A stretch of 32,440 nucleotides of DNA from Syntrophobacteraceae bacterium (GTDB lineage: Bacteria; Desulfobacterota; Syntrophobacteria; Syntrophobacterales; Syntrophobacteraceae). This document shows, piece after piece, positions 4,637 to 32,381 of the stretch. Numbering within the stretch: the first letter of the stretch is position 1; every line of letters begins with the position of its first letter. Under the pieces are notes generated by a model, which was given only the letters and a program-made list of their open reading frames with translations, was not told where the DNA came from and searched no databases. The stretch spans positions 1 to 32,440 of the forward strand of contig JADGQM010000009.1 in NCBI GenBank assembly GCA_017881795.1, read 5' to 3'. The position numbers and the translations under genes were made by a program.

Positions 4637-4672
4637 GTTGTCCGCCTCTTTCCCTTTTCTCAAACTGCGTTC

Positions 4673-7359: not shown

Positions 7360-7365
7360 TCTAAT

Positions 7366-8562
7366 TTACCCCATGAGAATGCCGTCAGGGTCGACACATG
7401 CCTTGAGTGTTTGCTCCACCTGTCCCAGGACGTCTTGAGGAGCTTTTCCCAAGCTTCTATGATAGTTGCCTGAGATGAATCCTCCCGCTTCTTTGGCAGT
7501 CATGAGGACGCCCTCAACCCAAGAATCGATTCCGGTCGGGTCACCGGTGTAGAAGGCGTGGATTTTCCCCTCCGCGATTTGCCCGAAAAGTCCGTCAATT
7601 CCGGTCTTTTTTTGTGGCGCACCATAAAAAAAGTCCATGAATTTGGGCTGGTCGCTGTATCGGAGCTTCAGTTCATCGACCAAAGAGAAACCTGCTTCTG
7701 GGTTGAACAAACCCGTAAGAGAAGAGATTTCAGGGATGTCGGCTGGAGCCTCAGCCGCCATTATCGACTTGCTCTTCCTCAGCGCAGAATCCATCGCTTG
7801 CCACTCGTCATTCAGTTCATCCCGGACCCCGTCCACTTCGACCAGTACCAAGTGGTCGTCTGTTGCTGCCTTCTGGATGAAGGATTGGACAATGGGATCG
7901 AACCAGAACAGGTAAGCGGGCACGATCCTCGCGCTGCGGAGGGCGTCCACCAAGCCGAATACGTCTTCCAGGCAAGTGAAACGGGCGATGATAAGCCTTT
8001 TCGCTTCTGGCTCAGGTAGCAGTTTGAGAAGGAATTTGACAGGGATGCCAAGATTCGCATATGGACCGTTCATGAATCGGGTTAGATCATAGCCGGTGAC
8101 GTTTTTGACCGTCTTACCGCCGGTCTTTATGAGTTTGCCGTCAGGAAGAAGAATATCGGCGCCCATCAGGAAGTGCTTTGCAGGCCCATACTTGAGGCTG
8201 GCGATATTTGAGCAGCCCTCATAGAAGAATTGCCCGACCGTTTTTTCACGGAGAAAAGGGGTGGCGGCAGGGACGAAACGCAAGCGGTGCTCGATTAGAG
8301 CGTCGCTAAGGTCGCCGAGTCTAACCCCAGGCTCCACCCCAGCGACAAGGTTGGCGGTGTCGGTTTCGAGGATCTTATTCATGCGGGTTAATACAAGGTG
8401 GAGTCCCTGTTGTCCTGAGTCTCGGTGGATGTAAATGGGGGTTTTCTGGAGCTTTGCCTGATGCAGGATCGCGCGAATCTCCTCGACGTTCGATGGACGA
8501 TGGGCATTCCGCAGGGGCGTGTCCCCGGTGTGTGTTGATGAGTTGCTGAAAAGAGCGTCCAT
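7366..8562 (-). CDS. glcE: GlcE-like FAD-binding subunit (divergent)
   Basis: This 398-residue FAD-binding protein resembles the accessory flavoprotein GlcE of glycolate oxidase. The weak family pattern is VAGVEPGVRLGDLSDAL, then TVGQFFYEGCSNIASLKYGPA and GGKTVKNVTGYDLTRFMNG, which corresponds to the KNVxGYDL signature of GlcE. The usual glycine-rich PP loop is degenerate: IHRDSGQQGLHLVL stands where GlcD has GASTGLSGG, so FAD affinity may be altered. The start ATG is preceded by ACGAGGTCATC. It is first in a tight glcE-glcF-glcD run. A 212-base spacer separates it from the upstream metallo-hydrolase gene and may hold a promoter that I could not define. Confidence 0.83.
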   Translation of the reverse strand: MDALFSNSSTHTGDTPLRNAHRPSNVEEIRAILHQAKLQKTPIYIHRDSGQQGLHLVLTRMNKILETDTANLVAGVEPGVRLGDLSDALIEHRLRFVPAATPFLREKTVGQFFYEGCSNIASLKYGPAKHFLMGADILLPDGKLIKTGGKTVKNVTGYDLTRFMNGPYANLGIPVKFLLKLLPEPEAKRLIIARFTCLEDVFGLVDALRSARIVPAYLFWFDPIVQSFIQKAATDDHLVLVEVDGVRDELNDEWQAMDSALRKSKSIMAAEAPADIPEISSLTGLFNPEAGFSLVDELKLRYSDQPKFMDFFYGAPQKKTGIDGLFGQIAEGKIHAFYTGDPTGIDSWVEGVLMTAKEAGGFISGNYHRSLGKAPQDVLGQVEQTLKACVDPDGILMG

Positions 8563-12533: not shown

Positions 12534-15410
12534 TCACCCTTTTCGGACCTCGGTTAAAAATTCATGGAAATCCACTTCGCCCGCCTCCAAACCGCGAGTG
12601 TAAATGAAGTGGCTTGCAAGCCAGGAAGAAACGATCGCTTTTGTATAATTGCGCGGGATGCGGTTGAGCATTTCCTGAATCCCAATGGCATCCACGAGAG
12701 TCGGTGGGCAGTGTTTCCCGAGAACCTTCGCACTCAGGTCCGGATCTTCACTGAGCGAGGATCGGCTGATGGCGTCAGTGATCTTGCTGATCTTATTACT
12801 CAGTTCGTCGGAAAGAACGGAAAGAGGCGCCCTCTGCAGACTGTGTTCGTACCAGAGAGACTCGAATTCCAGGCGAGCATTGGTTCTGATGATGTTCACC
12901 ACGTCCCGCACATAAGCTTCCCGAAACTCGGGAACCTTTCCATCCTGAACGACCAGACAACTTGCATACTCCTCATCGGTAAGAGCCAGGCTGGCAAGCA
13001 CCTCCAGAGATGAAGACGTCACCCCTCCCTTGTTCGTGGAAGCATCCTTGAAGACAATGACGCCTGCATTCTCTAAAGCGAGTCTGGCCTCCTGAGTTAG
13101 AAAAAGGTTCGCCCCTTCCACAATATACTTGAATCGTGGCGTACCATCCTTATCCAGCAACTGCCTCCAGTTTTGAATATTGATGGAGTTGGGGCGGCCT
13201 CCGCAGGGAACGAAGAGGTCGGCTTTGAGCATCGGGTTCAGATGAAAGTTGTTTCGAAATTCTGTTCCGTTGGCTGCTTCGGTGCCGTCAGGCAGAGTCA
13301 CATTACGGTCATGGACATGAACGAAAAACCCGCCGGAGGAGAGCTTCGATTGATCAAAACTTTCGACCATTTTCCGTTGTTTCGCCAGAGCCATCAACTC
13401 CTCGCGATTCAGACCATTGGGGTCGAACAGCACGCCGCTGCCATCCACGACACACACCGTTTGATCCTTTGCAACGAGAATCTCGTTGCTTCCCAAATCC
13501 CCATCCGGACCACCAATCTGAGCTTTAGTGATGCGCTCTTCCTCAAGACCCAGCTTGGAGAGGATCCCCAGCACATATTCATGGACGGAATATGTCGTCA
13601 TGCCATAGAAGTCGTGGGGAATCCCTCCCTCTTCCGAGGATTTGCCCGTCGAAAACGACTTCCAGAATTTGTAGCCCCTTTGCCGAGCGCGGCTTGAGGC
13701 CCAGTCCATCACATGCGCTGTACCTTCATCAGGCCCCAAAAAGAGGATTTCCTCCCTACCCAGGTAGTCTTTTACGGAATCATCAGGCAGAATCACATCA
13801 AGCAATCCATCCACGTATTTCTCGAATGCCTGTTCTCCTGCCTCCTGGGAATCCAGGTTTAGCAAGAGTGCCCCTTTTGCGCCCCCTTCGGGTATGTCTT
13901 TGTTCTTGCGCTGCTGGGTCAAAGCAAGCTGGTAGTTTTCATCGAAGATGAAATCCGCATTCTGGTCGTAGTTCTCGGCATCGCGGGACTTCACAATGCG
14001 GATCCCGCCTCGTGCAATATCCCGAAACCTTAAATGAAATCCATAAAACTCCTTGCCGAGCATCATGAAAAGGCTTTCAGGAGTCTTCTCGTAGGCGATG
14101 GCGTCCAAGAAAGCCGCCGGGCTCAAGCGGAACGCAAGCGAGGACTTCGCTTTCTTGTAGAAGTTTGTTTTCAGCACGGCGTTATTGAACAAAAGGAAGA
14201 ACTCCAATATCGCCCGGTCGATCTCAAAGGGTATTTCGGGAAGCTTCGGCCGGCATTCTTCTGATGCGGCAAGTCCTTCCGGGTTAAAGCGACAGGCGAA
14301 GTGAAAATAGAGTTCTTTGATGTTCTCGGGATAGTGAACGATGGATTGAAGAATCCGGTCTTCAGTATAAGAGTCTTTGACCAGCCGAGTCCGTAATCCT
14401 TTCAAGATATCCGTCAGGTCCGGCCGGTCCCTGAGCACCATCATCAGGGCCAGGTATTCCGGACCAAAGCTGCTCAGGAATTGATGAGTAAACCTCATGG
14501 CGCTGATTGCGTAAAAGGCCTCGTGCACGGAAAGCGTATTGTTTCGAATCAACGGCGACAGAGCATTCTCGGGGTTGATATAGATAAGGCCGATATCATG
14601 AACGATATCAGCTATATGAGCAGCCGCCGCCTGCCTGTTAACGTACACAGTATGGATCAGACGCCCGTTTGAAAACGGTTCCAGAAACTTGTACAGGCTA
14701 AACAAGCCATAATGGTTGATGATATCCGAAACACCCGATATGAAGCGATATCCACCCGATGCAGGGATCGAAATCATAATGCGCGTTTCATCTGCTTTTG
14801 TGTCACTGGCCTCGACATACGGCCGGCCTGATCCCAAAGAACGGCTCAACACCCCCTGATAGCGATCGAGCACAGGTTTGGTAGACATGGCAAGGAATTG
14901 CTTAGTCGCCACCTTGTGTATGTCGTCCTCTTGAGGAGCAGGCTCGGGCTCAGGATACTCGGGCCTTTCCACGAAATAGGTCCGGAATGGTGATTGCAGA
15001 GCAATACCGCGGGTACGATAGCTCTGAAGTCGGAAGGATGGAAAGAGCTTTTCAATCCTGCGCTCAATCTCAACCGCCTTGCCATGACCAGCATTGATTA
15101 TGTACATGGCGGAATCTTCCCGCTCGCTGATCAGATCCACCTCCAGTTGCTCGGAATCCCGATTGATGGCGATGATTTCTGCCGCCATGATCGACTCTAT
15201 ATGGTTGGCGATGGTCTCAGGGGGTGTGGTCCGAAAGTAGTAGGGCGCCATGCCGATTTTGCAGCAAAATGTGTGGAGCTCGCGCTCGACGTGTCCAACA
15301 GAGAAATTGCCTCGCCAGATGATAATGTTAGCTATCTTCTGTAACTCCTCTATCGGCAGACGAGTCGATTGGGCGGCCTCGGTTAATAATTCCATTAATG
15401 TGGTTCCCAT
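12534..15410 (-). CDS. Large NAD-type glutamate dehydrogenase (~958 aa)
   Basis: The protein is about 958 residues, close to the ~115-kDa class of NAD-dependent glutamate dehydrogenase and much longer than the ~450-residue hexameric enzyme. A long N-terminal regulatory part (about 1-440) precedes the catalytic domain. That domain holds DIARGGIRIV (about 465), KDIPEGGAKGALL (about 505, with the catalytic-type lysine), FLGPDEGTAHVMDWA, and the dinucleotide-binding turn GGPDGDLGSNE (about 635). It oxidises glutamate to 2-oxoglutarate and ammonium, linking 5-oxoprolinase upstream with KorDABC downstream. I placed the start at 15410 because AAAGGAGAAATCT sits immediately upstream; an earlier in-frame ATG at 15452 lacks such a site. 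NAD preference is a family-level inference. Confidence 0.88.
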   Translation of the reverse strand: MGTTLMELLTEAAQSTRLPIEELQKIANIIIWRGNFSVGHVERELHTFCCKIGMAPYYFRTTPPETIANHIESIMAAEIIAINRDSEQLEVDLISEREDSAMYIINAGHGKAVEIERRIEKLFPSFRLQSYRTRGIALQSPFRTYFVERPEYPEPEPAPQEDDIHKVATKQFLAMSTKPVLDRYQGVLSRSLGSGRPYVEASDTKADETRIMISIPASGGYRFISGVSDIINHYGLFSLYKFLEPFSNGRLIHTVYVNRQAAAAHIADIVHDIGLIYINPENALSPLIRNNTLSVHEAFYAISAMRFTHQFLSSFGPEYLALMMVLRDRPDLTDILKGLRTRLVKDSYTEDRILQSIVHYPENIKELYFHFACRFNPEGLAASEECRPKLPEIPFEIDRAILEFFLLFNNAVLKTNFYKKAKSSLAFRLSPAAFLDAIAYEKTPESLFMMLGKEFYGFHLRFRDIARGGIRIVKSRDAENYDQNADFIFDENYQLALTQQRKNKDIPEGGAKGALLLNLDSQEAGEQAFEKYVDGLLDVILPDDSVKDYLGREEILFLGPDEGTAHVMDWASSRARQRGYKFWKSFSTGKSSEEGGIPHDFYGMTTYSVHEYVLGILSKLGLEEERITKAQIGGPDGDLGSNEILVAKDQTVCVVDGSGVLFDPNGLNREELMALAKQRKMVESFDQSKLSSGGFFVHVHDRNVTLPDGTEAANGTEFRNNFHLNPMLKADLFVPCGGRPNSINIQNWRQLLDKDGTPRFKYIVEGANLFLTQEARLALENAGVIVFKDASTNKGGVTSSSLEVLASLALTDEEYASCLVVQDGKVPEFREAYVRDVVNIIRTNARLEFESLWYEHSLQRAPLSVLSDELSNKISKITDAISRSSLSEDPDLSAKVLGKHCPPTLVDAIGIQEMLNRIPRNYTKAIVSSWLASHFIYTRGLEAGEVDFHEFLTEVRKG

Positions 15411-15557
15411 AGATTTCTCCTTTGTTGGCGCCTGAAAGAAATGCTTTACCAATCAGGTCAAGGCCAAGGGGGCATTTTGCGCTGCCAGCATCACCGGAGT
15501 CGCCCGGGCCGTGTATCTCAGCCTCTTTGACATTCGATACTTGAGAGACCTCGGGCA

Positions 15558-16322
15558 TTAACTGGACTGGCCAAACGGTTCAAACACGATCGAATCCTTG
15601 TCCAGGAGCTTTCTGATTAACTTGATCATCTCCACCGCCCCCGGAGTGTCTCCATGGACGCATATTGTCTGTGCGACTATGGGCACTTCTACGCCATCGA
15701 TGGAGGTGATCTTCTGATGCTTCACCATCGACATGACCCGTTCGGCGACCAGGTTGATATCATGGATCACGGCGCCAGGTTTGCTCCGCGGGACCAGGGT
15801 GCCCTCGTTCGTATAAGCCCTGTCGGCAAATGCTTCTTCGACGTATTTGGCTCCAGCCTTCCTGGCAGCCTCCACCATTTGCGATTTACCCAAACACACC
15901 ATAAACAACCCGGGATCCACTGATTGAATCGCTTCGGCGATGGCGCCGGCAATGCGGATGTCTGTCGCTGCCATATTGTAGAGTGCTCCGTGAGGTTTCA
16001 CATGTTGCAGCTTCACTTCTTCAGACTGACAGATCGCCCACAGAGCGCCGATCTGATAGATGGTGTCGGCCCTTATCTCATCGGGTGAGGCTCCCATGTT
16101 TCTTCTTCCGAAACCAACAAGGTCGGGAAATGACGGGTGCGCACCGATGGCGATGTGGTGCTTTTTCGCCAGTCGTATGGTATGAAGCATGTTGCCGGGG
16201 TCTGAAGCATGGAATCCGCATGCAACATTGATCGAGGTGACGAAGGGCATGACTTCTTCGTCATAGCCCAGCTTGTAGGTCCCAAAGCTTTCTCCCATGT
16301 CACAATTCAGGTCTATCTTCAT
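15558..16322 (-). CDS. pxpA: 5-oxoprolinase subunit A (LamB/YcsF family)
   Basis: This 254-residue protein begins MKIDLNCDMGESFG, the hallmark N-terminus of PxpA (E. coli YbgL), followed by ACGFHASDP (acidic/His metal-type site), GAHPSFPDLVGFGRR, and HVKPHGALYN near 125. PxpA hydrolyses the phosphorylated 5-oxoproline intermediate in the PxpABC reaction that turns 5-oxo-L-proline and ATP into glutamate. The start was moved to 16322, where AAAAAGGAGCATGAAT precedes the ATG; the open frame extends 21 codons further without a comparable site. It follows pxpC and pxpB, and is 147 bases upstream of the glutamate dehydrogenase start. Confidence 0.93.
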   Translation of the reverse strand: MKIDLNCDMGESFGTYKLGYDEEVMPFVTSINVACGFHASDPGNMLHTIRLAKKHHIAIGAHPSFPDLVGFGRRNMGASPDEIRADTIYQIGALWAICQSEEVKLQHVKPHGALYNMAATDIRIAGAIAEAIQSVDPGLFMVCLGKSQMVEAARKAGAKYVEEAFADRAYTNEGTLVPRSKPGAVIHDINLVAERVMSMVKHQKITSIDGVEVPIVAQTICVHGDTPGAVEMIKLIRKLLDKDSIVFEPFGQSS

Positions 16323-16378
16323 ATTCATGCTCCTTTTTCCATGCGCATCCACGCTGTCTGATTCTTGTGAACGCCTGC

Positions 16379-17347
16379 TCAGCAAGCTGTCCAGACAAGG
16401 GATTGCTGCTCCTCCAAAAAACGCTCAATCTCAAAATAGCGATTCTCCTCGCTACGCAGAACCTCGAGCGCCTCCCTGTCCGAACAAGAGCGAAAACAAA
16501 CGGTATCGCCGGGCCGTCCCTGAGCGAGCCACGAAAGATCAGGACCAATCACTGTGGCTATCTTTGGATATCCACCCGTAGTTTGGCGGTCGGCCATCAT
16601 GACTATAGGCATGCCGTGGGCAGGCACCTGAACAGCGCCTTCAGGCAAAGCATCGGATATGATATCTGCTGCCCCGGCATGCTCGATCTTCGGTCCTTCA
16701 AGGCGGTATCCCATCCGGTCGGCTTCGTTGGAGACCGTGTACTTGCTTTCCATGAAAGTCCTGATGCCTTCCGGAGCAAACATGTCATCTTGGGGCCCCA
16801 TGACGACCCTCAAGGTCAGCTCCTGATCATAGCGAGCAGTGAATTGCTCGGGCAGAGTCGTCGGCAGAGCGCGCGACCCGACATCGTTGCCGACACGGAG
16901 GACGTCGTCTACTTTCAAGGGTCGCCCTTCCAGCCCCCCCACACCTGCCCGCGTGTAGGTGGACCGGCTTCCCAAAACCAGCGGCACCTTGATTCCGCCG
17001 TGGACGGCCAGGTAGGTCCGGCAACCAGCCGCCACATAATCAAATGAGAGTACGCTTCCTGCGGCCACCTGGAACGCAGACCAATTGGGGACCTTTGCCC
17101 CGTCTAGGTTCGGCTGCATATCGGCTCCACACAGGGAGACGAGGCATTGGCTCTCGAATTCGAAGGCCCCCCCGAGCATGGTCATTTCCAGAACGGCAGC
17201 ACCCTTGCGATTGCCTGCCAGGAGGTTGGCAACGCGAGAGGCATACCGGTCCATGGCGCCCGCAACAGGCATTCCATAGGCCTGGTAACCCCAACGGCCT
17301 TCATCCTGGACAGTGGAGAACAACCCCGGCTTAATCGTTTTAATCAT
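16379..17347 (-). CDS. pxpC: 5-oxoprolinase subunit C (KipA/biotin-dependent carboxyltransferase-like)
   Basis: This 322-residue protein opens with TVQDEGRWGYQAYGMPVAGAMD, split here as TVQDEGR and GMPVAGAMD, the conserved N-terminus of the allophanate-hydrolase subunit 2/KipA/PxpC family. AVHGGIKVPLVLGSRSTYTRAGVGG and MADRQTTGGYPKIATV are further family landmarks. With PxpB it forms the ATP-using part of 5-oxoprolinase. The start overlaps the pxpB stop by 8 bases. It is not fused to PxpB, in line with the E. coli YbgJ/YbgK pair. Confidence 0.92.
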   Translation of the reverse strand: MIKTIKPGLFSTVQDEGRWGYQAYGMPVAGAMDRYASRVANLLAGNRKGAAVLEMTMLGGAFEFESQCLVSLCGADMQPNLDGAKVPNWSAFQVAAGSVLSFDYVAAGCRTYLAVHGGIKVPLVLGSRSTYTRAGVGGLEGRPLKVDDVLRVGNDVGSRALPTTLPEQFTARYDQELTLRVVMGPQDDMFAPEGIRTFMESKYTVSNEADRMGYRLEGPKIEHAGAADIISDALPEGAVQVPAHGMPIVMMADRQTTGGYPKIATVIGPDLSWLAQGRPGDTVCFRSCSDREALEVLRSEENRYFEIERFLEEQQSLVWTAC

Positions 17348-18107
17348 CGGATATATCCTCCAGGCTTACTGTACGGATGTCAGGCGAGAAAAAACCAGCC
17401 TCTACATCCCGCCTGATATGGTGATATTCCTCAGGCGAGATGGGTATGAACCTCAAATAGTCACCGGCATCAAAGAGGAATGGATTGGCTGTGCCAGGAA
17501 GGAAAGGCCTTAATGGCGTGCGGCCTATCAATCTCCAGCCTCCGGGACTCTCAATCGGGTAAAGCCCCGTCTGTGCGCCAGCAATCCCCACGGAACCTTG
17601 CGGTATTTTCGCTCGAGGTTTTTCAAGCCGGGGGGTGGCTATTTTGTCGGACATTCCACCCAGGTAGGGAAATCCGGGTGTAAAGCCCAGCATGTAAACC
17701 AGATAGGGTCTGGAACTGTGGATCGTGATCACCTCTTCAATTGAAAGCCTATTGTGCTGCGCCACATACTCGAGGTCCGGCCCAAATTCGCCACCATAAC
17801 AGACGGGTACATGAACCACGCGCACCCCCTCCTTTTCCACAACTTCAAGGCCTTCGTCAGAGGCAAGCATTTGTTGAATTGCCTCGACCAGATCAGACCG
17901 GCTTATGTTGAAAGGGTCAAAGTAAACCAACAGTGAGCGGTAGGTCGGGACAACCTCGATCACGCCTGCAATGCTTTTCTGATTAATCCGTCTTGCCAGT
18001 CGCTGAACACGGGCATTGACTTCTGGAGAAATCAGATTCCCCAGCTCCACGACTAAACCACGTTCGCCAGCGGGCAGTACTCTGAACTCGGGTAATCTGC
18101 CGGTCAT
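17340..18107 (-). CDS. pxpB: 5-oxoprolinase subunit B (KipI-like)
   Basis: This 255-residue protein is the allophanate-hydrolase subunit 1/KipI/PxpB family member. The signature LGFTPGFPYLGG is near residue 145, followed by RLEKPRAKIPQGSVGIAG (split here as KIPQGSVGIAG) and YPIESPGGWRLIGRTP, which together are diagnostic. PxpB and PxpC use ATP to phosphorylate 5-oxoproline. The gene is 3 bases downstream of the MFS transporter stop, with GGAG six bases before the ATG. In Bacillus the homologue KipI inhibits the sporulation kinase KinA, but the full pxpABC set here favours the metabolic role. Confidence 0.92.
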   Translation of the reverse strand: MTGRLPEFRVLPAGERGLVVELGNLISPEVNARVQRLARRINQKSIAGVIEVVPTYRSLLVYFDPFNISRSDLVEAIQQMLASDEGLEVVEKEGVRVVHVPVCYGGEFGPDLEYVAQHNRLSIEEVITIHSSRPYLVYMLGFTPGFPYLGGMSDKIATPRLEKPRAKIPQGSVGIAGAQTGLYPIESPGGWRLIGRTPLRPFLPGTANPFLFDAGDYLRFIPISPEEYHHIRRDVEAGFFSPDIRTVSLEDISDD

Positions 18108-23531: not shown

Positions 23532-25274
23532 CTACCAGTCAAACACGCGATCCAAATCTTCATCTTTCACGTCGAAGGTGACGTTGTGGGGGCCGACGGG
23601 TTCGTTTTTGAAGAACTCGGGCAAGCGGTCCTGTTGAGCGGAAAACCCGGCGCGCACATTGAAATCGCGTTCCGTGCTCAGGACCCGCTTGCCGAGCGCC
23701 ACCACGTCGTCGCCTGTCAGGTTCGTCCCGTAAAAGCCGTTGAGCAGGTCCAGGAGGGCCTGGAAGGTCTCCGGTTGATCGAGGAGGGCGAAGGCTATGA
23801 ACAGGCACATACCCGTTGAGTCTATCGCCGCAGTGGCGATCTGGAGATCCCGCGAGAGTTGGATCTGACCCTCGGGTTTTAGCGGATCGATAAAGCCTCC
23901 GACCCTGAGGATATTGGCGGTCACAGCATACCCCGCCGTGTGGTCGGCTCCCATGGGGCTGGTGGCATAGGTCACGCCAATGCCTTGGACCGCCCTGGGA
24001 TCGTAGGCTGGAAGCGCCTGCCCTTTGACCACCGGCACCCGTTCTACGCCGAAGACCTTACCCGTAACGGCGGCCCCTGCTCCCAGAATACGCCCCAAAT
24101 GAGTCCCCTGACCGACTTCCTTCATCAGGTTGATGGCGCCTTCGGCGTCGCCAAACTTGAGCAGCCCGGCTTCCATGGCAACACCGATGGTCACACCCAT
24201 CTCGATGCTATCCAGGCCGTAGTTGTCATCCAGAAAATCCAGCATGGCGATGGCGTCCAGATCGGATATACCGCAGTGCCCGCCATGAGCCCAAACGGTC
24301 TCATATTCGGGTTGTTTGCTGAGGAAGTTTCCATCTTTATCGAAGTAAGTGCCGGAGCAGCGGATGACGCAACCCCGGTGGCAACCGTGGGTTGCCGACC
24401 CTGGCCCGCCACGCAGGTTTTCAGTTTCAGCCTGGGTTTCGCCGCTGATTTTATGGGCGCCCTCGAAGCGTCCTTCCTTAAAGTTGTACGCAGGATAGCC
24501 TCCCGCTTCACACAGAATGTTGGTCAGGACATTGGTTCCGTAGGTGGGAAGGCCCTGGCCGGTTACCGGGTGATTTCTCAGTCCTTCGACGAACTTCTTG
24601 TTTGCGGCGTTGAATTTTTCCGGATCTTGCGGTGACCGCATCTTCGCTCCCGCATCATCGAGGACGATGGCCTTGATCCTCTTGGCGCCCATGACCGCAC
24701 CCATGCCTCCACGACCGGCATGACGGGTGGGCCGCAATTCCATGTCGGTGATGGCAATCGTTGCGGCACTCATCTTCATTTCACCGGCCGGGCCGATGGA
24801 GATACAAGTAATCTTCCTGCCATACTGATATTTCATCCGCTCCACCAACTCGTAGTTAGGGAGCAGTTTCAGACTGTTGTCGAGGATGACTTTGACGCCG
24901 CCCGGGTTGATGTGAACGCGGTAAAGGTCATCCTTTTGCGGCTTTCCCTCAAGGACCATGGCGGCATATCCCAACCGGGCCAGCACCTGAGCCGCCTGCC
25001 CGCCGGCATTGGCTTCCTTGATGCCCCCGGTGAGCGGGCTTTTGGCGCCGACCGAAAGGCGCCCCGACATGGCGGCGGTCGTGCCGCTGAGCATCCCCGG
25101 GGCAAGGACCAGCTTGTTATCCGCCCCAAGAGGGTGGCACAGCGGGGGAACCTCCCTGGCAACCATAGCCGAGGTGAGGGCTCTGCCTCCCAAGCCGGTA
25201 TAATCGCCCAAGGGTTCCTCGGTCACCTTTGGACCACCTTCAGCTCCCATATCGATTCTCAAAATCTTGTCCAT
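23532..25274 (-). CDS. aor: Aldehyde:ferredoxin oxidoreductase (tungstopterin enzyme)
   Basis: This 580-residue member of the AOR family oxidises aldehydes to acids, or the reverse, with ferredoxin, using a bis-pyranopterin tungsten cofactor and one [4Fe-4S] cluster. The N-terminal domain shows YTGLGGRAL, APGMLSGTTAAMSGRLSVGAKSP (split here as SGRLSVGAKSPLTG) and GGQAAQVLARLGYAA. RHAGRGGMGAVMGAKR (around 170-185) is a pterin-contact signature. GCHRGCVIRC near 300 and DSTGMCLF near 490 supply the cluster cysteines. I start it at 25274: AGGAGG directly abuts the upstream ATG 25283 (zero spacing) but is 9 bases from ATG 25274. It is a single-gene unit with its own terminator. Tungsten use is inferred from the family. 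Confidence 0.94.
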   Translation of the reverse strand: MDKILRIDMGAEGGPKVTEEPLGDYTGLGGRALTSAMVAREVPPLCHPLGADNKLVLAPGMLSGTTAAMSGRLSVGAKSPLTGGIKEANAGGQAAQVLARLGYAAMVLEGKPQKDDLYRVHINPGGVKVILDNSLKLLPNYELVERMKYQYGRKITCISIGPAGEMKMSAATIAITDMELRPTRHAGRGGMGAVMGAKRIKAIVLDDAGAKMRSPQDPEKFNAANKKFVEGLRNHPVTGQGLPTYGTNVLTNILCEAGGYPAYNFKEGRFEGAHKISGETQAETENLRGGPGSATHGCHRGCVIRCSGTYFDKDGNFLSKQPEYETVWAHGGHCGISDLDAIAMLDFLDDNYGLDSIEMGVTIGVAMEAGLLKFGDAEGAINLMKEVGQGTHLGRILGAGAAVTGKVFGVERVPVVKGQALPAYDPRAVQGIGVTYATSPMGADHTAGYAVTANILRVGGFIDPLKPEGQIQLSRDLQIATAAIDSTGMCLFIAFALLDQPETFQALLDLLNGFYGTNLTGDDVVALGKRVLSTERDFNVRAGFSAQQDRLPEFFKNEPVGPHNVTFDVKDEDLDRVFDW

Positions 25275-25325
25275 AAATGCCATCCTCCTGAAAGTAAAAA
25301 ATGAGAGATCATCGTTGGGATTGTT

Positions 25326-26021: not shown

Positions 26022-27197
26022 ATGCGTGAAGCAGTGATTGTCAGTGCGGTCAGGACTCCCCTGGGAAGCTTTAATGGTTCTCTGGGCTCAATCGGGGCAA
26101 CGAAACTGGGGTCTTTGGTCATCGAGGAAGCGGTAAAGCGGGCCGGAATCTCCAAAGAGGACGTCAATGAAGTAATTATGGGCATGGTGCTTCCCTGTGG
26201 TTACGGGCAGAACCCCGCCAAACAGGCTGCCGTCCAGGCCAACATGCCCTGGGAGGCGGAAGCTATTACCGTCAACAAGGTCTGCGGATCGGGCTTGAAA
26301 GCAGTGATGCTGGGGGCTCAGGCCATCCAGCTTGGCGATGCCGATGTGGTCGTTGCCGGAGGCATGGAGAACATGACTCTGGCGCCGTATTACCTGGACA
26401 AGGCACGGGCTGGATATCGCATGGGAGATGGCAAGATTTATGACCATATGGTCCACGACGGACTCTGGGATATCGTAAACGACTTTCACATGGGAATTTC
26501 CAATGAGCTGTGCTCAGAGAGATATAACGTCACTCGAGAGGACCAGGACCGCTACGCGGCCGAATCCTACCGACGCACCCTGACGTCCATAACATCGGGA
26601 AGATTCAAAGACGAAATCGTGCCCGTATCCGTTCCCTCACGCAAAGGTGAGCCGGTCCTCTTCAGCCAGGACGAATGTGCGCGGGAAACAACCTACGAAG
26701 CTCTGGCCAAAATGCGGTGGGCATTTAAGAAAGACGGCGTGACGACGGCCGGCAATGCTTCGGTTATCAGTGACGGCGCGGCGGCGGTGGTAGTCATGGC
26801 AAGGGAGAAAGCGGAAGCCCTGGGCTGTCGCATTATGGCGACCGTCGGGGCGCAGGCTTCGGCCGGTATTGATATGAAGTACGTCCTGGTGGCTCCCATC
26901 TGGGCAATCCCCAAGTGTTTAAAAAAAGAAGGACTCAGCCTGGGCGACGTGGACCTGTTCGAGGTCAACGAAGCCTTCAGTGGTTCTACGGTGGCGGTCA
27001 TGAAAGAACTCAAGCTTGATCCCGCTAAAACCAATGTCAATGGCGGCAGCGTTGCCCTCGGGCATCCCATCGGCGCCAGCGGTTGCCGGTTGTTGGTCAC
27101 ATTGCTGCATGAGATGGTTCGCCAGGATAAGAAGGTGGGGCTGGTTTCCCTTTGTCTGGGTGGGGGTGAAGCCGTGGCCTTGATCGTGAAGCGATAA
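26022..27197 (+). CDS. Acetyl-CoA C-acyltransferase (thiolase)
   Basis: This 391-residue thiolase has the normal length. The acyl-accepting cysteine is Cys88 in NKVCGSGLKAV; the second catalytic pair is His348 in GHPIGASG and Cys378 in SLCLGGGEA. The N-terminus EAVIVSAVRTPLGSFNGS is typical of acetoacetyl-CoA thiolases. AAGGAGGCAACC precedes the ATG. As the first gene of the plus-strand fatty-acid cluster it would cleave 3-ketoacyl-CoA to acetyl-CoA in the degradative direction, or condense acetyl-CoA in the synthetic one. Chain-length preference is not evident. Confidence 0.95.
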   Translation: MREAVIVSAVRTPLGSFNGSLGSIGATKLGSLVIEEAVKRAGISKEDVNEVIMGMVLPCGYGQNPAKQAAVQANMPWEAEAITVNKVCGSGLKAVMLGAQAIQLGDADVVVAGGMENMTLAPYYLDKARAGYRMGDGKIYDHMVHDGLWDIVNDFHMGISNELCSERYNVTREDQDRYAAESYRRTLTSITSGRFKDEIVPVSVPSRKGEPVLFSQDECARETTYEALAKMRWAFKKDGVTTAGNASVISDGAAAVVVMAREKAEALGCRIMATVGAQASAGIDMKYVLVAPIWAIPKCLKKEGLSLGDVDLFEVNEAFSGSTVAVMKELKLDPAKTNVNGGSVALGHPIGASGCRLLVTLLHEMVRQDKKVGLVSLCLGGGEAVALIVKR

Positions 27198-27258
27198 GGG
27201 GCGTCAGCAAGCAGAGCAGGTTAGAAGTCAGGTTTGCCAACAGGAGAAGGAGGAAATC

Positions 27259-28107
27259 ATGGAGCTGAAGACCTTTGGGGTGGTGGGTGCTGGTCAGATG
27301 GGTAACGGGATCGCTCAGGTGGCAGCCATGAGCGGTATGCAGGTGATCATGAACGACATCAAAGATGAGTTCGTGCAGCGTGGGCTCAAAAACATTACCA
27401 ACATCCTGAGTAGAAACGTGGACAAGGGAAAGATGAGCGCCGAAGAAAAGGATGCCATCCTCGGGCGCATCAAGACCAGCGTGCAGATCAAGGACATGGC
27501 GGCCGCCGATTATGTCGTGGAAGCGGCGACGGAGAATGAACCCATCAAACTGCAGATCTTTCGGGATCTCGATGCAGCCTGTGCCCCCGATGTCATCCTC
27601 GCTACGAACACCTCTTCCATTCCCATCGGTCGCATTGCCGCGCAGACGAAACGGCCCGAAAAAGTCATCGGCATGCATTTCATGAATCCCGTGCCGGTCA
27701 TGAAGCTCGTCGAGGTTATTCGGGGGCTGCGGACCTCGGATGAAACCTTTAAAGTGACCTGGGATCTTTCCCTCAAGTTTGGCAAGACGCCGGCGGAAGC
27801 GAACGACTTTCCCGGGTTTATTTCCAACCGGGTTCTCATGCCCATGATTAACGAAGCGGTCTATGCCGTCTACCACGGGGTGGGGAAGCCGGAGGACATT
27901 GACACCGTGATGCGTCTCGGGATGAACCATCCGATGGGGCCGCTGGCCCTGGCTGACCTCATTGGCCTGGATACCTGTCTTGCCATCATGGAGGTGCTCC
28001 ACAACGGCTTCTGTGATTCCAAATATCGCCCATGCCCGCTCCTTCGCAAATACGTTGAAGCCGGTTGGCTGGGGCGCAAGAGCGGGCGCGGATTCTACGC
28101 TTACTAG
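27259..28107 (+). CDS. hbd: 3-hydroxyacyl-CoA (3-hydroxybutyryl-CoA) dehydrogenase
   Basis: This 282-residue NAD(P)-dependent dehydrogenase has the length of Hbd. The dinucleotide-binding loop is GVVGAGQMGNGIAQ (7-20). The catalytic histidine is His140 in GMHFMNPVPVMKLVE, with the glutamate partner in that segment, and NDFPGFISNRVLMPMINEA follows. The C-terminal domain ends GRKSGRGFYAY, as in short-chain enzymes. GGAGAAGGAGGAAATC precedes the start, 61 bases after thiolase. It interconverts 3-hydroxyacyl-CoA and 3-ketoacyl-CoA between the acyl-CoA dehydrogenase and thiolase steps. The enoyl-CoA hydratase that should come between them is absent from the window. Confidence 0.95.
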   Translation: MELKTFGVVGAGQMGNGIAQVAAMSGMQVIMNDIKDEFVQRGLKNITNILSRNVDKGKMSAEEKDAILGRIKTSVQIKDMAAADYVVEAATENEPIKLQIFRDLDAACAPDVILATNTSSIPIGRIAAQTKRPEKVIGMHFMNPVPVMKLVEVIRGLRTSDETFKVTWDLSLKFGKTPAEANDFPGFISNRVLMPMINEAVYAVYHGVGKPEDIDTVMRLGMNHPMGPLALADLIGLDTCLAIMEVLHNGFCDSKYRPCPLLRKYVEAGWLGRKSGRGFYAY

Positions 28108-28143
28108 GCAGTCGTTAAGATTATCGGATTCATGACACAGCTT

Positions 28144-28193
28144 GTGGGGCAGGCTTTCCAGCCTGCCAGGGGCAGGTTGGAAAACTGCCCCAC
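28144..28193. repeat. Palindromic element between hbd and the first acyl-CoA dehydrogenase
   Basis: GTGGGGCAG (28144-28152) pairs with CTGCCCCAC (28185-28193), and the arms continue inward to give about 23 nearly complementary positions. The left arm by itself folds as GGCAGGCT-TTCC-AGCCTGCC (28148-28167). No T-tract follows. It looks more like a dispersed REP-type element than a terminator, though it could shorten transcripts after hbd. No second copy was found in the window. Confidence 0.6.
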
Positions 28194-28254
28194 CGTCAAG
28201 CATCAAACTGGGCCACTTATTTTGTGCAGCCCTTGACCGGGCAGGATGGATGAG

Positions 28255-29403
28255 ATGGACTTTGAATTGACGCAAGAACAAAAAACCATTCGGGATACTG
28301 CCGCACAATTTGTTAAACACGAACTGGAACCCATCGCCGCAGAATTAGACCAAACTAAGAATCGCGAAAAACTGAAAGGCATCTTGAAGAAGCTCGCGGA
28401 TCTCGGCTTCATGGGCCTTAACGTGGACCGTAAGTACGGAGGAACCGCGGCAGGAACCGTGGCTTTCTCCCTGGCCATGACGGAACTGGGGCGAGCCTGT
28501 GCTTCAACCACGGTGACCACGTCGGTCACCAACATGGTTGCCGAGGTGATCCAGGTGGTTGGCAGCGAACCATTGCGGGAGAAGTACATTCCGTCCCTTT
28601 GTAATGGTGAGTTTGCCGCCGGCGGTTTCGCACTGACTGAAGCCGGGGCCGGTTCGGACCCCGCAGCGATGCGCATGAGCGCCGTCCTGGATGGCGATCA
28701 TTGGGTGCTGAATGGCCAAAAGCTTTTTATTAGCAGTGCCGAATTTGCCGGTGTTTTTGTGGTGTGGGCGGTAAGCGATAAAGAAGCGCGCAAGGGCAAA
28801 GGGATCAGCTGTTTTCTGGTTGAGCCGTCATTCCCGGGCTTGAGGATCGGCAAGGAAGAAAAGAAACTCGGGCAGTTGGCCTCTCCGACCAACGAGCTGA
28901 TCTGTGACAACTGCCTCGTTCCGAAGGAAAACCTTCTGGGCGTCCCCAATGATGGTTTCCGGATTGCCGCTGCCGAACTGGCTGGTGGACGGATCGGCAT
29001 TGGCTCCATGTCTCTCGGCATCGGGCTGGCCGCCATGGATTTTGCCAGAGACTATGTCAAAGAACAGGCGCGGCTCGACTTGCCTGCCTTCAGGCGTCGA
29101 GGCGCCGACAGGATGCTTGCGGACAACACTACGCGCCTTGCGGGAGCAAGGTTTCTGCTTCTGCGTGCGGCTTTCCTTAAGGATCAGAAAACGTTCTATG
29201 CCAAGGAAGCTTCGATGGCTAAAGTCTATGCCACGGAAGCGGCAAACCAGGCCTGCCATGATGCCATGGAGATTCTCGGCGATTATGGCTATACTCAGGA
29301 TTGCCCCGTGGAACGTTTTTACCGCGATGTGCGCGTCACCTCGATCTATGAGGGAACCAGTGAAATCCAGCGCCTGATCATCGCGCGCGAATTGCTGCGG
29401 TAG
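28255..29403 (+). CDS. Acyl-CoA dehydrogenase family protein, first of a pair
   Basis: This 382-residue protein starts from ATG 28255 (MDFELTQEQ, the usual beginning; the frame also offers ATG 28246). The flavin-side motif TEAGAGSD (128-135) and FISSAEF (from 158) are in place, and the catalytic base is Glu366 in IYEGTSEIQRL. The C-terminal motifs that contact the neighbouring subunit's FAD are degenerate: where RxQFGxPI is expected there is EQARLDLP (270-277), the FQA-x-Q stretch is RRRGAD, and QIxGGxG is MEILGDYG (338-345). It is followed 66 bases later by a second acyl-CoA dehydrogenase with the opposite pattern, then by an ETF. It would form the catalytic half of a 2,3-dehydrogenation of an acyl-CoA. 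Confidence 0.93.
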   Translation: MDFELTQEQKTIRDTAAQFVKHELEPIAAELDQTKNREKLKGILKKLADLGFMGLNVDRKYGGTAAGTVAFSLAMTELGRACASTTVTTSVTNMVAEVIQVVGSEPLREKYIPSLCNGEFAAGGFALTEAGAGSDPAAMRMSAVLDGDHWVLNGQKLFISSAEFAGVFVVWAVSDKEARKGKGISCFLVEPSFPGLRIGKEEKKLGQLASPTNELICDNCLVPKENLLGVPNDGFRIAAAELAGGRIGIGSMSLGIGLAAMDFARDYVKEQARLDLPAFRRRGADRMLADNTTRLAGARFLLLRAAFLKDQKTFYAKEASMAKVYATEAANQACHDAMEILGDYGYTQDCPVERFYRDVRVTSIYEGTSEIQRLIIARELLR

Positions 29404-29469
29404 CTGAGCACAAGGAGCTCGATCGGTTAGCCCGCACAACCTTGTTCGTTTCCCAAGGCGGAGGTTATC

Positions 29470-30606
29470 ATGCACCTTGAACTGACAGAAGAACAACAAC
29501 TGGTCCGAGCCAGTGTGAGAGAGTTTTGTGAAAAGTATATAGAACCCTTAGCCGATGCGGTCGATCAGGAACCCTGTTTCCCTTCCGAGAATGTCAAGAG
29601 ACTGGCCGAACAGGATTGGCTGGGTATTCCCTATCCTGAAGAGTATGGTGGCGCTGGGGCCGACTATCTGACCCACATCATCGCCGTCGAAGAGCTGTCT
29701 CGTGCTTGCGCCGCCACCGGATCCATTGTCGAGGCCAATGCCTCCCTGGTCGGCTTTCCCCTGTTCAAGTTCGGCACGGAAGAGCAAAGAAAGAAATACC
29801 TCACCCCCCTTTGCAAGGGAGAAATGCTGGGGGCGTTCGCGTGGACCGAAGCCGGCGCCGCCACTGTCGCTTATGGAGCCACAACGGCGGTTTCGGAAGG
29901 CAACGAGTACGTGCTTAATGGCGCCAAAACGTTCGTTTTGTACGCCCCGGTTGCAGGGGTCTTCATTGTCTTTGCAGCCACCGACAAATCCAAGGGAACC
30001 GAGGGACTGAGCGCATTCATCGTCCCTGCCGACACTCCGGGAATTAAGGCCGGGGAGCAGGTGAAAAAAATGGGGTTGCGTGGTGCTTTGACCTCTGAGC
30101 TCGTGCTGAAGGACTGCCGCATCCCCAAAGAGAACCTGCTGGGTCAGGAAGGACAGGGGTTTACCATCGCCACAACGACCCTCGACGGTTGCCGGATAGG
30201 CATTGCCGCCCAGGCATTGGGTATTGCCGAGGCCGCTCTGGAGGAGTCCGTTCGCTACTCCAAGGAACGAGTCCAGTTTGACAAGCCGATCTGCACTTTC
30301 CAGGCAATCCAGTGGATGCTTGCGAATATGGCCATTGAAGTGGAAGTCTCCAGGTATCTGACGTATCACGCCGCCTGGTGTTATGATCAAGGTCTGCCTT
30401 ACAGCAAAGAAGCTGCCATGGCAAAGCTCATGGCTTCGCAGACGGCAGTGCGTCAGACCGACACGGCGGTCCAGATTCATGGCGGTATTGGCACCGTAAA
30501 AGGTCAGAAAGTCGAACGTCTCTATCGTGACGCCAAGATCACTCAGATTTATGAAGGCACTCCGGACGTCATGAGGATGACTATTGCCGACAGCCTGCTT
30601 CAGTAA
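29470..30606 (+). CDS. Acyl-CoA dehydrogenase family protein, second of a pair
   Basis: This 378-residue protein has GGAGG six bases before its ATG. It keeps the neighbour-subunit FAD motifs ERVQFDKPI (266-274), FQAIQW (277-282) and VQIHGGIG (334-341). The flavin-side motif is altered: TEAGAATV (126-133) replaces TExGAGSD, and FVLYAP (155-160) replaces the usual FITN/FISN. Glu362 remains in YEGTPDVMR, but the following S-E-I is P-D-V. LTLDGCRIGIAAQALGIAEAAL-type helices are normal (its version begins TTLDGCRIG). Together with the preceding gene it probably forms a heteromeric enzyme; as a homotetramer its flavin site would be unusual. It is 31 bases upstream of the ETF beta gene. Confidence 0.93.
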   Translation: MHLELTEEQQLVRASVREFCEKYIEPLADAVDQEPCFPSENVKRLAEQDWLGIPYPEEYGGAGADYLTHIIAVEELSRACAATGSIVEANASLVGFPLFKFGTEEQRKKYLTPLCKGEMLGAFAWTEAGAATVAYGATTAVSEGNEYVLNGAKTFVLYAPVAGVFIVFAATDKSKGTEGLSAFIVPADTPGIKAGEQVKKMGLRGALTSELVLKDCRIPKENLLGQEGQGFTIATTTLDGCRIGIAAQALGIAEAALEESVRYSKERVQFDKPICTFQAIQWMLANMAIEVEVSRYLTYHAAWCYDQGLPYSKEAAMAKLMASQTAVRQTDTAVQIHGGIGTVKGQKVERLYRDAKITQIYEGTPDVMRMTIADSLLQ

Positions 30607-30637
30607 TGATTTTAGAGAGAAATGAGAAAGGTGATCG

Positions 30638-31411
30638 ATGCTCAAGGTAATTACGTGTTTCAAATGGGTTATAGATGAAGCTGACGTCAAGGTTGACGCC
30701 AGTTCGCGGAGGCTCATTCTCGATCGAGTGGGTTATAAGATCAGCCTTTACGACCGGAACGCCATTGAAGAGGCAGCACTCCTTCAGGAAAAACACGGCG
30801 CCAGTATTGTTGCCGTAACCGTGGCGCCGCCCACCGCCAAGCAATGCCTGAAGGACGCACTCTCCCGGGGGGCTGATAAGGCCTGCTTCGTAAACGATCC
30901 TTCTCTGGTGGACCTCGAACCCACGCAGACTGCAGCCTTGCTGGCTGCCGCCATTAAAGGGCAAGGGGACTTCGACCTCATCCTCTGCGGCGAAGGTTCC
31001 AGTGACCTTTACACCCAGCAAGTTGGGCCGATCCTGGCTGAGAAGCTGGGTATTCCTTGTGGCACTTATGTTAACAAGCTGACGGTGATAGAGGGTGAGA
31101 AACGGGTTATCGCCGAACGCAAACTGGATGACTGTGTTGAGATCGTATCCATACAGTTGCCGGCTCTCGTGACGGTTTTGCCGGATATCAATACACCCCG
31201 GATACCCACTCTGAAACAGGTTCTCGCAGCCGGGAAAAAGCCCGTCGATAACATTACGTTAGATAAGCTTGAATCACCATCCGAACCAGGTTTGGAGACA
31301 ACCAGCATTTTGGGAGCGACGATGGAGCGGCGGCGTCTTAAGTTCGGGGCTGAAGCGGAAAATATCCGGGCAGCGGTAGGCGCCTTGTTGAAAGAAGGAG
31401 TTATCACTTAA
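30638..31411 (+). CDS. etfB: Electron-transfer flavoprotein beta subunit, FixA-type
   Basis: This 257-residue ETF beta subunit is closest in pattern to FixA (E. coli carnitine-pathway and nitrogen-fixer types): ITCFKWVIDEADVKVD at the N-terminus, then ISLYDRNAIEEAALL, and ILCGEGSSDLYTQQVGP in place of the canonical GxxxIDGDxxQVGP. LPALVTVLPDINTPRIPTLKQVL (here split: VLPDINTPRIP) is the usual recognition-loop region. It binds the AMP or second flavin of the ETF heterodimer and accepts electrons from acyl-CoA dehydrogenases. It is followed by its alpha partner after 13 bases. FixC/FixX-type quinone oxidoreductase genes, if present, lie beyond the window. Confidence 0.93.
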   Translation: MLKVITCFKWVIDEADVKVDASSRRLILDRVGYKISLYDRNAIEEAALLQEKHGASIVAVTVAPPTAKQCLKDALSRGADKACFVNDPSLVDLEPTQTAALLAAAIKGQGDFDLILCGEGSSDLYTQQVGPILAEKLGIPCGTYVNKLTVIEGEKRVIAERKLDDCVEIVSIQLPALVTVLPDINTPRIPTLKQVLAAGKKPVDNITLDKLESPSEPGLETTSILGATMERRRLKFGAEAENIRAAVGALLKEGVIT

Positions 31412-31424
31412 GGAGTGCTCATCT

Positions 31425-32381
31425 ATGGCAGGGATTTGGGTTTTCGCTGAAAACCGAGAACACACACTGGAACTCTTGAATGCCGGGAAGAGCCTGGCAG
31501 GAGATTTGGGGGCGAAGCTGGCGGCTTTTGCATCGAGCACCCAATTGGCCCAGGAATATATTGCTCATGGGGCTGATGAAGTCTTACTTCTCGCTCCACT
31601 CGCCGAGGACCAGCCGCTGGAATCCTACGTTCCCGTTATCGCCGATGCCGCCCGCACGGAAGACCCTGAGGTGTTTCTCATTGCAGCAACGCCGCGCGGG
31701 AAGGAAATCGCCGCTCGCGTTGCCGCCCGCCTGAATACGGGGCTTTGCAGTGACTGTAGTGGTTTTGAGCTCGATAAGGAAAAGAAACTGCTCAAAATGG
31801 ATCGCTTGTTTTTCGGGGGATTGGCAGTGCAGACGGTCATGTGCACTGCCCGTCCTCAGATGGCTACGATTCCTCCCCGGACTTTCGACCCAGCTACGGA
31901 GCAGGAGGGCCGGCAAGGAACGATAAAAGAGCTTCCGCCTGCTCCCTCCTCGGGTGTGCAAGTACTGCAAAGGACTCCGAAGACGCGAGAAGCTGTGGAC
32001 ATCACCGAAGCCAAGATCGTGGTTTGCGTCGGCCGGGGCGTGGCCAAGCAGGAAGATATCGCTTTAGCCAAGGAATTGGCCAAAGTGCTCGGCGGTGAGG
32101 TGGCCTGTTCGCGGCCAATCGCCGAAGAGTTGCACTGGCTGCCCGAGGAGGTATACCTGGGCATCTCGGGGAAAAAGGTCAAGCCCGATCTTTACGTCGG
32201 GATCGGCATATCCGGTCAGATCCAGCATGTGACAGGCATCCGGGACAGTAAAGTGATCTTTGCGATCAACCGCGACGAGAGCGCCCCTATTTTTGAAGCA
32301 GCCGACTACGGCATCGTGGGGGATCTCTACAAGGTTGTCCCGCAGCTCATCGAGGAATTCAAGTCAGCCTTGAAGCAATAA
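31425..32381 (+). CDS. etfA: Electron-transfer flavoprotein alpha subunit, FixB-type
   Basis: This 318-residue ETF alpha subunit has the N-terminal GIWVFAENREHTLELLNAG start and TPRGKEIAARVAARLNTGLCSDC. The FAD domain near the C-terminus is VVCVGRGVAKQEDIALA, ACSRPIAEE, GISGQIQH and FAINRDESAPIFEAADYGIVGD (split here as APIFEAADYGIVGD). All are complete, so FAD binding should be normal. Like its partner it resembles FixB. AAGGAGTGCTCATCT precedes the ATG. The last 59 bases of the window hold no gene start I can identify. Confidence 0.94.
   Translation: MAGIWVFAENREHTLELLNAGKSLAGDLGAKLAAFASSTQLAQEYIAHGADEVLLLAPLAEDQPLESYVPVIADAARTEDPEVFLIAATPRGKEIAARVAARLNTGLCSDCSGFELDKEKKLLKMDRLFFGGLAVQTVMCTARPQMATIPPRTFDPATEQEGRQGTIKELPPAPSSGVQVLQRTPKTREAVDITEAKIVVCVGRGVAKQEDIALAKELAKVLGGEVACSRPIAEELHWLPEEVYLGISGKKVKPDLYVGIGISGQIQHVTGIRDSKVIFAINRDESAPIFEAADYGIVGDLYKVVPQLIEEFKSALKQ

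Follow-up and report, generated by a model that had tools for sequence, protein, structure and literature searches.

The window, that is, the whole stretch of DNA analysed, is the entire contig C456 (32,440 bases) of a draft genome of 4.4 Mb. At its right end, six consecutive genes on the + strand encode a thiolase, a 3-hydroxybutyryl-CoA dehydrogenase (HBD), two acyl-CoA dehydrogenases (ACADs), here called alpha and beta, EtfB and EtfA, and the contig ends 59 bases after EtfA (Table 1). No enoyl-CoA hydratase gene was found in this cluster (26022-32381), so that the product would be hydrated by an enzyme encoded elsewhere or past the contig end. The mechanical open reading frame of alpha runs from 28246 (Met1) to 29403 and its homologues begin at Met4 (28255); hence the residue named Glu366 in a preliminary description of this DNA is Glu369 in the numbering used here. 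Intact paralogues of alpha (G000:C380:455-1492, 72%) and of beta (G000:C39:7292-8419, 67%) are present elsewhere in the same genome.

Table 1. Features of the gene cluster and of the PimC/PimD-like pairs (module 1, thiolase-HBD-ACAD; module 2, ACAD-EtfB-EtfA; residue numbers refer to the protein named)
Feature	Position	Strand	Basis and remarks
Thiolase (acetyl-CoA acetyltransferase type), module 1	26022..27197	+	Profile match; 80% identical and syntenic in L152; syntenic with a single alpha-type ACAD in L016, L017, L019-L025, L028
HBD, module 1	27259..28107	+	NF004474 above cut-off
Alpha, SCAD/BCD-type ACAD, predicted catalytic; own-side FAD motifs kept, neighbour-side lost	28255..29403	+	Profile, motif alignment
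Alpha TEAGAGSD, 131-138, own-side FAD motif, intact	28636..28659	+	Motif alignment
Alpha FISS, 161-164, own-side FAD motif, intact	28726..28737	+	Motif alignment
Alpha EQARLDLPAFRRRGADR replacing ERxQFxxPIxxFQAIQW, 273-289; neighbour-side R, F, Q lost	29062..29112	+	Motif alignment; part-deleted in G021 alpha
Alpha MEILGDYG replacing xQxxGGxG, 341-348; Q342, G346 lost	29266..29289	+	Motif alignment; VRLLGDFG in G021
Alpha YEGTSEIQR, 368-376; predicted catalytic base Glu369 (Glu366 from Met4)	29347..29373	+	Motif alignment
Beta, BCD-type ACAD, predicted non-catalytic; neighbour-side FAD motifs kept, own-side lost	29470..30606	+	Profile, motif alignment, predicted fold
Beta TEAGAATV replacing TExGAGTD, 126-133; one residue deleted in alignment	29845..29868	+	Motif alignment; ARAGIAG in G021
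Beta FVLY (within TFVLYAP) replacing FI(T/S)N, 155-158	29932..29943	+	Motif alignment
Beta ERVQFDKPICTFQAIQW, 266-282, neighbour-side FAD motif, intact	30265..30315	+	Motif alignment
Beta VQIHGGIG, 334-341, neighbour-side FAD motif, intact	30469..30492	+	Motif alignment
Beta YEGTPDV (in IYEGTPDVMR), 361-367; Glu362 kept, flanking S/E changed	30550..30570	+	Motif lost in G021 (VCDSSSDALR)
EtfB, module 2	30638..31411	+	Profile; follows intact beta-type ACAD in L151 (S. fumaroxidans), L153-L155, L161
EtfA, module 2	31425..32381	+	Profile
PimC/PimD-like pair L197	350-1630, 1501-2712		
PimC/PimD-like pair L198	1453-2691, 2695-3846		
PimC/PimD-like pair L199	345-1484, 1501-2673		

By profile scores and in the tree, both window proteins fall inside the short-chain/butyryl-CoA dehydrogenase (SCAD/BCD) group. 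In an ordinary ACAD each FAD is sandwiched by two subunits. One of them contributes TExGAGSD, FI(T/S) and the T-x-E that follows the catalytic Glu (own side), and its neighbour lends the RxQF Arg, the FQ Gln and the QxxGG loop (neighbour side). The contacts were assigned to these sides from established knowledge of MCAD and SCAD, rather than from coordinates. All the motifs quoted in the preliminary description were found in place in both proteins, and the complementary motif loss that it had noticed in the two adjacent ACADs was confirmed against 146 intact homologues. Neither alpha nor beta carries a complete FAD site in a single polypeptide; one gene supplies the own side and the other the neighbour side, as in a heteromeric alpha2beta2 ACAD. 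Glu369 of alpha is presumably the catalytic base, a role known from SCAD, BCD and MCAD.

As a reference we used the 80 columns that are conserved in at least 93% of the 146 intact homologues. Alpha was changed in 11/80 of them (R274, Q276, F277, Q285, Q288, W289, Q342, G346 and three others) and beta in 9/80 (L130, G136, D138, I162, S213, G248, E373 and two others, given as the consensus residue in alpha numbering), and only one changed column was common to both. When the 12 FAD-contact columns were considered, the changes in alpha affected 4/5 neighbour-side and 0/7 own-side columns (hypergeometric P ~0.001), and those in beta 4/7 own-side and 0/5 neighbour-side columns (P ~0.002), although these sets follow the annotated FAD contacts of human SCAD and were drawn up after the motifs had been seen, so that the P values are indicative only. 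The motif split exceeds chance. The window beta still has Glu362 and 8 of the 12 FAD-contact columns; Thr364, Glu127 and a large part of the middle domain are likewise kept. The column changed in common, 300 of alpha (293 of beta), is the only one of the conserved columns to differ in each of the four heteromer proteins, i.e., those of the window and of the second pair described below: Ala is replaced by Gly in both alphas and by Val in both betas, and the position may lie at the new alpha-beta interface.

It had been stated beforehand that homologues with the same changes and no partner would speak against a heteromer. None was observed: the motifs were complete in ~120 alpha-type homologues, with identities of 54-77% and hosts ranging from Desulfobacterota to marine Gammaproteobacteria, and in ~47 beta-type homologues with identities of up to 75%, and within the order no second ACAD lay beside an alpha- or beta-type homologue in the stretches read. 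In the tandem ACADs of two loci (L037 and L089) both genes are intact, which indicates that adjacency alone does not bring about the losses.

One further adjacent pair with such losses, split in the same manner, was found in another genus of the family (L152, contig C271 of genome G021). There, the same alpha and beta are adjacent, again after thiolase and HBD, with identities to the window proteins of 80% for thiolase, 83% for HBD, 72% for alpha and 65% for beta. The losses affect the same sides as in the window pair, but they are more advanced: in alpha the RxQF loop is partly deleted and the QxxGG region reads VRLLGDFG, and in beta all 7/7 own-side FAD columns are lost, with ARAGIAG in place of TExGAGTD and VCDSSSDALR in place of IYEGTSEVMR, so that the catalytic Glu, present as Glu362 in the window beta, is gone. 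Transporter genes lie downstream of this second pair, and ETF genes do not adjoin it. The second beta also reads LDSERIS where the window beta has LDGCRIG, i.e., after loss of the usual Glu it carries one where isovaleryl- and long-chain acyl-CoA dehydrogenases have their catalytic base; this Glu is probably there by chance, because the FAD side of this beta is gone. The split pair is thus known from two occurrences in two genera, both in fragmented assemblies. No further split pair was found in a survey of the class and the phylum, in which the beta-like matches were intact; in the phylum scan, scoring covered a small number of top candidates from each genome.

In a maximum-likelihood tree the two alphas were sisters (100/98), as were the two betas (100/99), and each pair was nested among intact homologues, the nearest intact beta being a Syntrophobacter fumaroxidans protein; the members of the second pair were on long branches. 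Hence, the split most simply arose once, before the two genera parted, and the erosion would most simply have continued after their separation. The rates of the domains were mirror images of each other. Between genera the middle domain of alpha was 84.8% identical and its C-terminal, FAD-lending region 57.1%, whereas the middle domain of beta was 56.0% identical and its C-terminal FAD region 77.1%. The alpha contrast (27.6) was clearly outside the range of the intact pairs (maximum 24.4), and the beta contrast (-21.1) was at its very edge (minimum -21.0); of 4440 intact pairs of similar divergence, which are not mutually independent, none matched either contrast. Alpha is under purifying selection, with a dN/dS of ~0.07. 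For beta, dS was saturated, and the proportions (pN 0.22 vs pS 0.76) speak against free drift.

The gene order of the window corresponds to two modules placed end to end, both of which survive on their own. In module 1 an alpha-type ACAD directly follows thiolase and HBD, an arrangement found in many Syntrophobacteria and some others (loci in Table 1). In module 2 an intact beta-type ACAD is followed by EtfB, and by EtfA where the stretch reaches that far; in S. fumaroxidans this is Sfum_3931-3929. The HpaB family includes 4-hydroxybutyryl-CoA dehydratase, and Sfum_3932 scored as a member of this family by profile. A published description of Sfum_3931-3929 (PMC3570798) also covers the CoA-transferase Sfum_3933 and Sfum_3932, a putative hydroxylase. 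The context of both modules suggests C4 acyl-CoA chemistry.

A comparable division of labour is known from steroid catabolism. According to two reports, it is seen in the crystal structures of ChsE1-ChsE2 and ChsE4-ChsE5, enzymes of mycobacterial cholesterol breakdown, and in these as well as in IpdE1-IpdE2 and Scd1AB (and in CasC, a natural fusion) two ACAD subunits make one FAD site per alpha-beta, with one subunit carrying the flavin ring, the base and the substrate, and the other binding FAD by its ADP part (PMC11153573, PMC8399759). Heteromeric ACADs have been reported or proposed in other steroid pathways (PMC11153573, PMC8399759, PMC6678751). Unlike the window pair, the steroid enzymes lie in actinobacterial or proteobacterial steroid clusters and belong to a different ACAD lineage. 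Membership of the ChsE/IpdE family was rejected, since beta scored 84 bits against a cut-off of 450 with the IpdE2 model, in which alpha was not listed, and no IpdE2 match at E<=1e-40 was found anywhere in the genome; a steroid catabolic cluster was likewise rejected, the neighbours being thiolase, HBD, EtfB, EtfA and amino/oxo-acid genes. With the model for acryloyl-CoA reductase (AcrC) the two proteins scored 458 and 363 bits.

Another parallel exists in Rhodopseudomonas palustris, where pimCD belongs to an anaerobic pathway, as known from benzoate degradation. The pimC and pimD genes are annotated as the large and small subunits of pimeloyl-CoA dehydrogenase and have been tied to anaerobic aromatic degradation (PMC6974649), and a 2025 study suggested a heterotetramer for a PimCD-like dicarboxylic acyl-CoA dehydrogenase (PMC12543098). 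Three adjacent PimC/PimD-like pairs, which scored under the equivalog cut-off, showed the same complementary loss of FAD half-sites as the window pair. The PimC-like proteins have I(Y/W)GG(T/S)NEIQ, with Glu missing at the usual base position; at the isovaleryl-type position they carry one, within (T/E)HER. They differ from the window pair in this absence of Glu from YEGT, in their dicarboxylic substrates and in a lineage that lies outside the whole SCAD/BCD group in the tree; PimC/PimD membership of the window pair was rejected on the tree and on profile scores (TIGR03204/TIGR03203: 91/61 bits for alpha and 79/122 bits for beta, against cut-offs of 624/653). The original statement that no such arrangement had been described in an ETF-linked anaerobic beta-oxidation cluster was too strong, because pimCD belongs to an anaerobic pathway and pairs of this type are split; for a cluster of anaerobic beta-oxidation, pimC/pimD of R. 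palustris is a likely precedent. In sequence, in fold (beta only), in the neighbouring ETF genes and in the presumed C4 chemistry, the window pair resembles the homomeric BCD/SCAD enzymes (C. difficile Bcd, 5OL2; A. fermentans, 4L1F; rat SCAD, 1JQI; Sfum_3931), but these have a complete FAD site in one gene and the window pair divides it over two.

The two genes very probably encode the subunits of one heteromeric short-chain ACAD, most likely an alpha2beta2 tetramer with two FADs, which would have become split after an operon join. Complementary losses, their recurrence and the existence of intact relatives support the earlier proposal that each alpha-beta dimer has a single FAD site, to which alpha supplies the base. 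Alpha would hold the flavin ring and the substrate and carry Glu369, and Arg267, Phe270, Gln278, Gln335 and Gly338-339 of beta would clamp the ADP half of alpha's FAD across the dimer interface. Alpha has lost the lending side in both genomes, and beta has lost own-side residues in both, which leaves the reciprocal site damaged on its two faces and predicted to lack FAD. Electrons would pass to the EtfBA encoded next door, and the likely reaction is the interconversion of butyryl-CoA and crotonyl-CoA or of a close C4 substrate. From the comparison of sequences we infer the physical complex, its stoichiometry, the dead second site, the substrate and the partnership with ETF, and the heteromer would be obligate. 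The predicted fold of beta is a normal BCD/SCAD fold (pLDDT 91; best structure matches 4L1F, 1JQI and 5OL2), as expected of a subunit that must still dimerise. An AlphaFold prediction of alpha-linker-beta as a single chain, with two in-frame TAG read as Gln, gave a pTM of 0.45, too poor to bear on the heteromer, owing to a thin alignment (few beta-type rows, and MAFFT rows on one half only). Points that speak against the heteromer are the two occurrences in fragmented assemblies, the retention of Glu362 and 8 of 12 FAD-contact columns in the window beta, the missing enoyl-CoA hydratase gene and the absence of ETF genes beside the pair in G021.

Other readings of the two genes have to be weighed against the heteromer. 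They could be decaying duplicates, relics that lost different motifs by accident while the intact paralogues do the work, as the presence of these paralogues in the same genome and the long branches of the second pair might suggest. However, both frames are open in two genera, the dN/dS of alpha is low, the FAD-site losses are restricted to complementary sides in both lineages, and the halves predicted to be in use stay conserved, which decay would not spare; on selection and on the pattern of loss, pseudogene decay was rejected as most improbable. It is also very unlikely that beta is a structural or ETF-docking subunit rather than a FAD-site partner, with alpha binding FAD in an altered way, possibly in alpha-alpha dimers: an alpha-alpha site would miss the lending-side R, F, Q, Q and G, and beta keeps exactly those, its C-terminal FAD region being its best conserved part between genera, even if its origin in an ACAD-EtfB-EtfA module could have led to retention for ETF docking and its normal fold was kept. 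The remaining alternative is that both FAD sites are in use, the second one (beta own side plus alpha lending side) binding FAD weakly or having another function. This could account for the window beta retaining Glu362, Thr364 and Glu127 as well as a large part of the middle domain, but it is extremely unlikely given that the second beta is without all seven own-side columns and the base, and that both alphas have lost the lending side.

For the heteromer, we infer the following order of events: a thiolase-HBD-ACAD operon would have been joined to an ACAD-EtfB-EtfA operon one time in Syntrophobacteraceae, two compatible homomeric enzymes would then have been co-expressed, and complementary halves would have been lost afterwards. 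It is possible, although on balance doubtful, that the join itself turned two self-sufficient C4 dehydrogenases into an obligate heteromer, in which alpha does the chemistry and beta holds the FAD and docks its ETF; from the gene order, beta may dock the ETF of its own module. What appears to be new is not a kind of enzyme, but an independent and younger origin of the split design from short-chain-type enzymes with surviving intact relatives, so that an anaerobe would have evolved the split ACAD design of steroid catabolism a separate time, in enzymes of the short-chain type. Since each subunit still has close relatives that are intact and the two operon types also persist, which the older split cases lack, the path from homomer to heteromer can be reconstructed and tested. 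If the proposal is true, the way in which complementary losses give rise to an obligate heteromer becomes directly testable, because homomeric relatives and both ancestral-type operons persist in sister genera. There is also a warning for annotation: family models label both genes as ordinary complete ACADs, yet neither should work alone.

Some other genes of the window were recorded. Upstream of the cluster, on the opposite strand, lies a gene for an aldehyde ferredoxin oxidoreductase family protein (23532-25283, -). Genes of the 5-oxoprolinase type (LamB/YcsF, CT_A_B and CT_C_D; 15558-18107, -) are found beside an MFS transporter gene and adjoin that of a large NAD-glutamate dehydrogenase (12534-15452). 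In addition, a protein of 439 residues (3344-4663, -) had no Pfam matches and by eye resembles nickel-pincer racemases; its gene adjoins those of a FAD-linked oxidase and an Fe-S oxidoreductase of the glycolate/lactate oxidase type (4673-8562).
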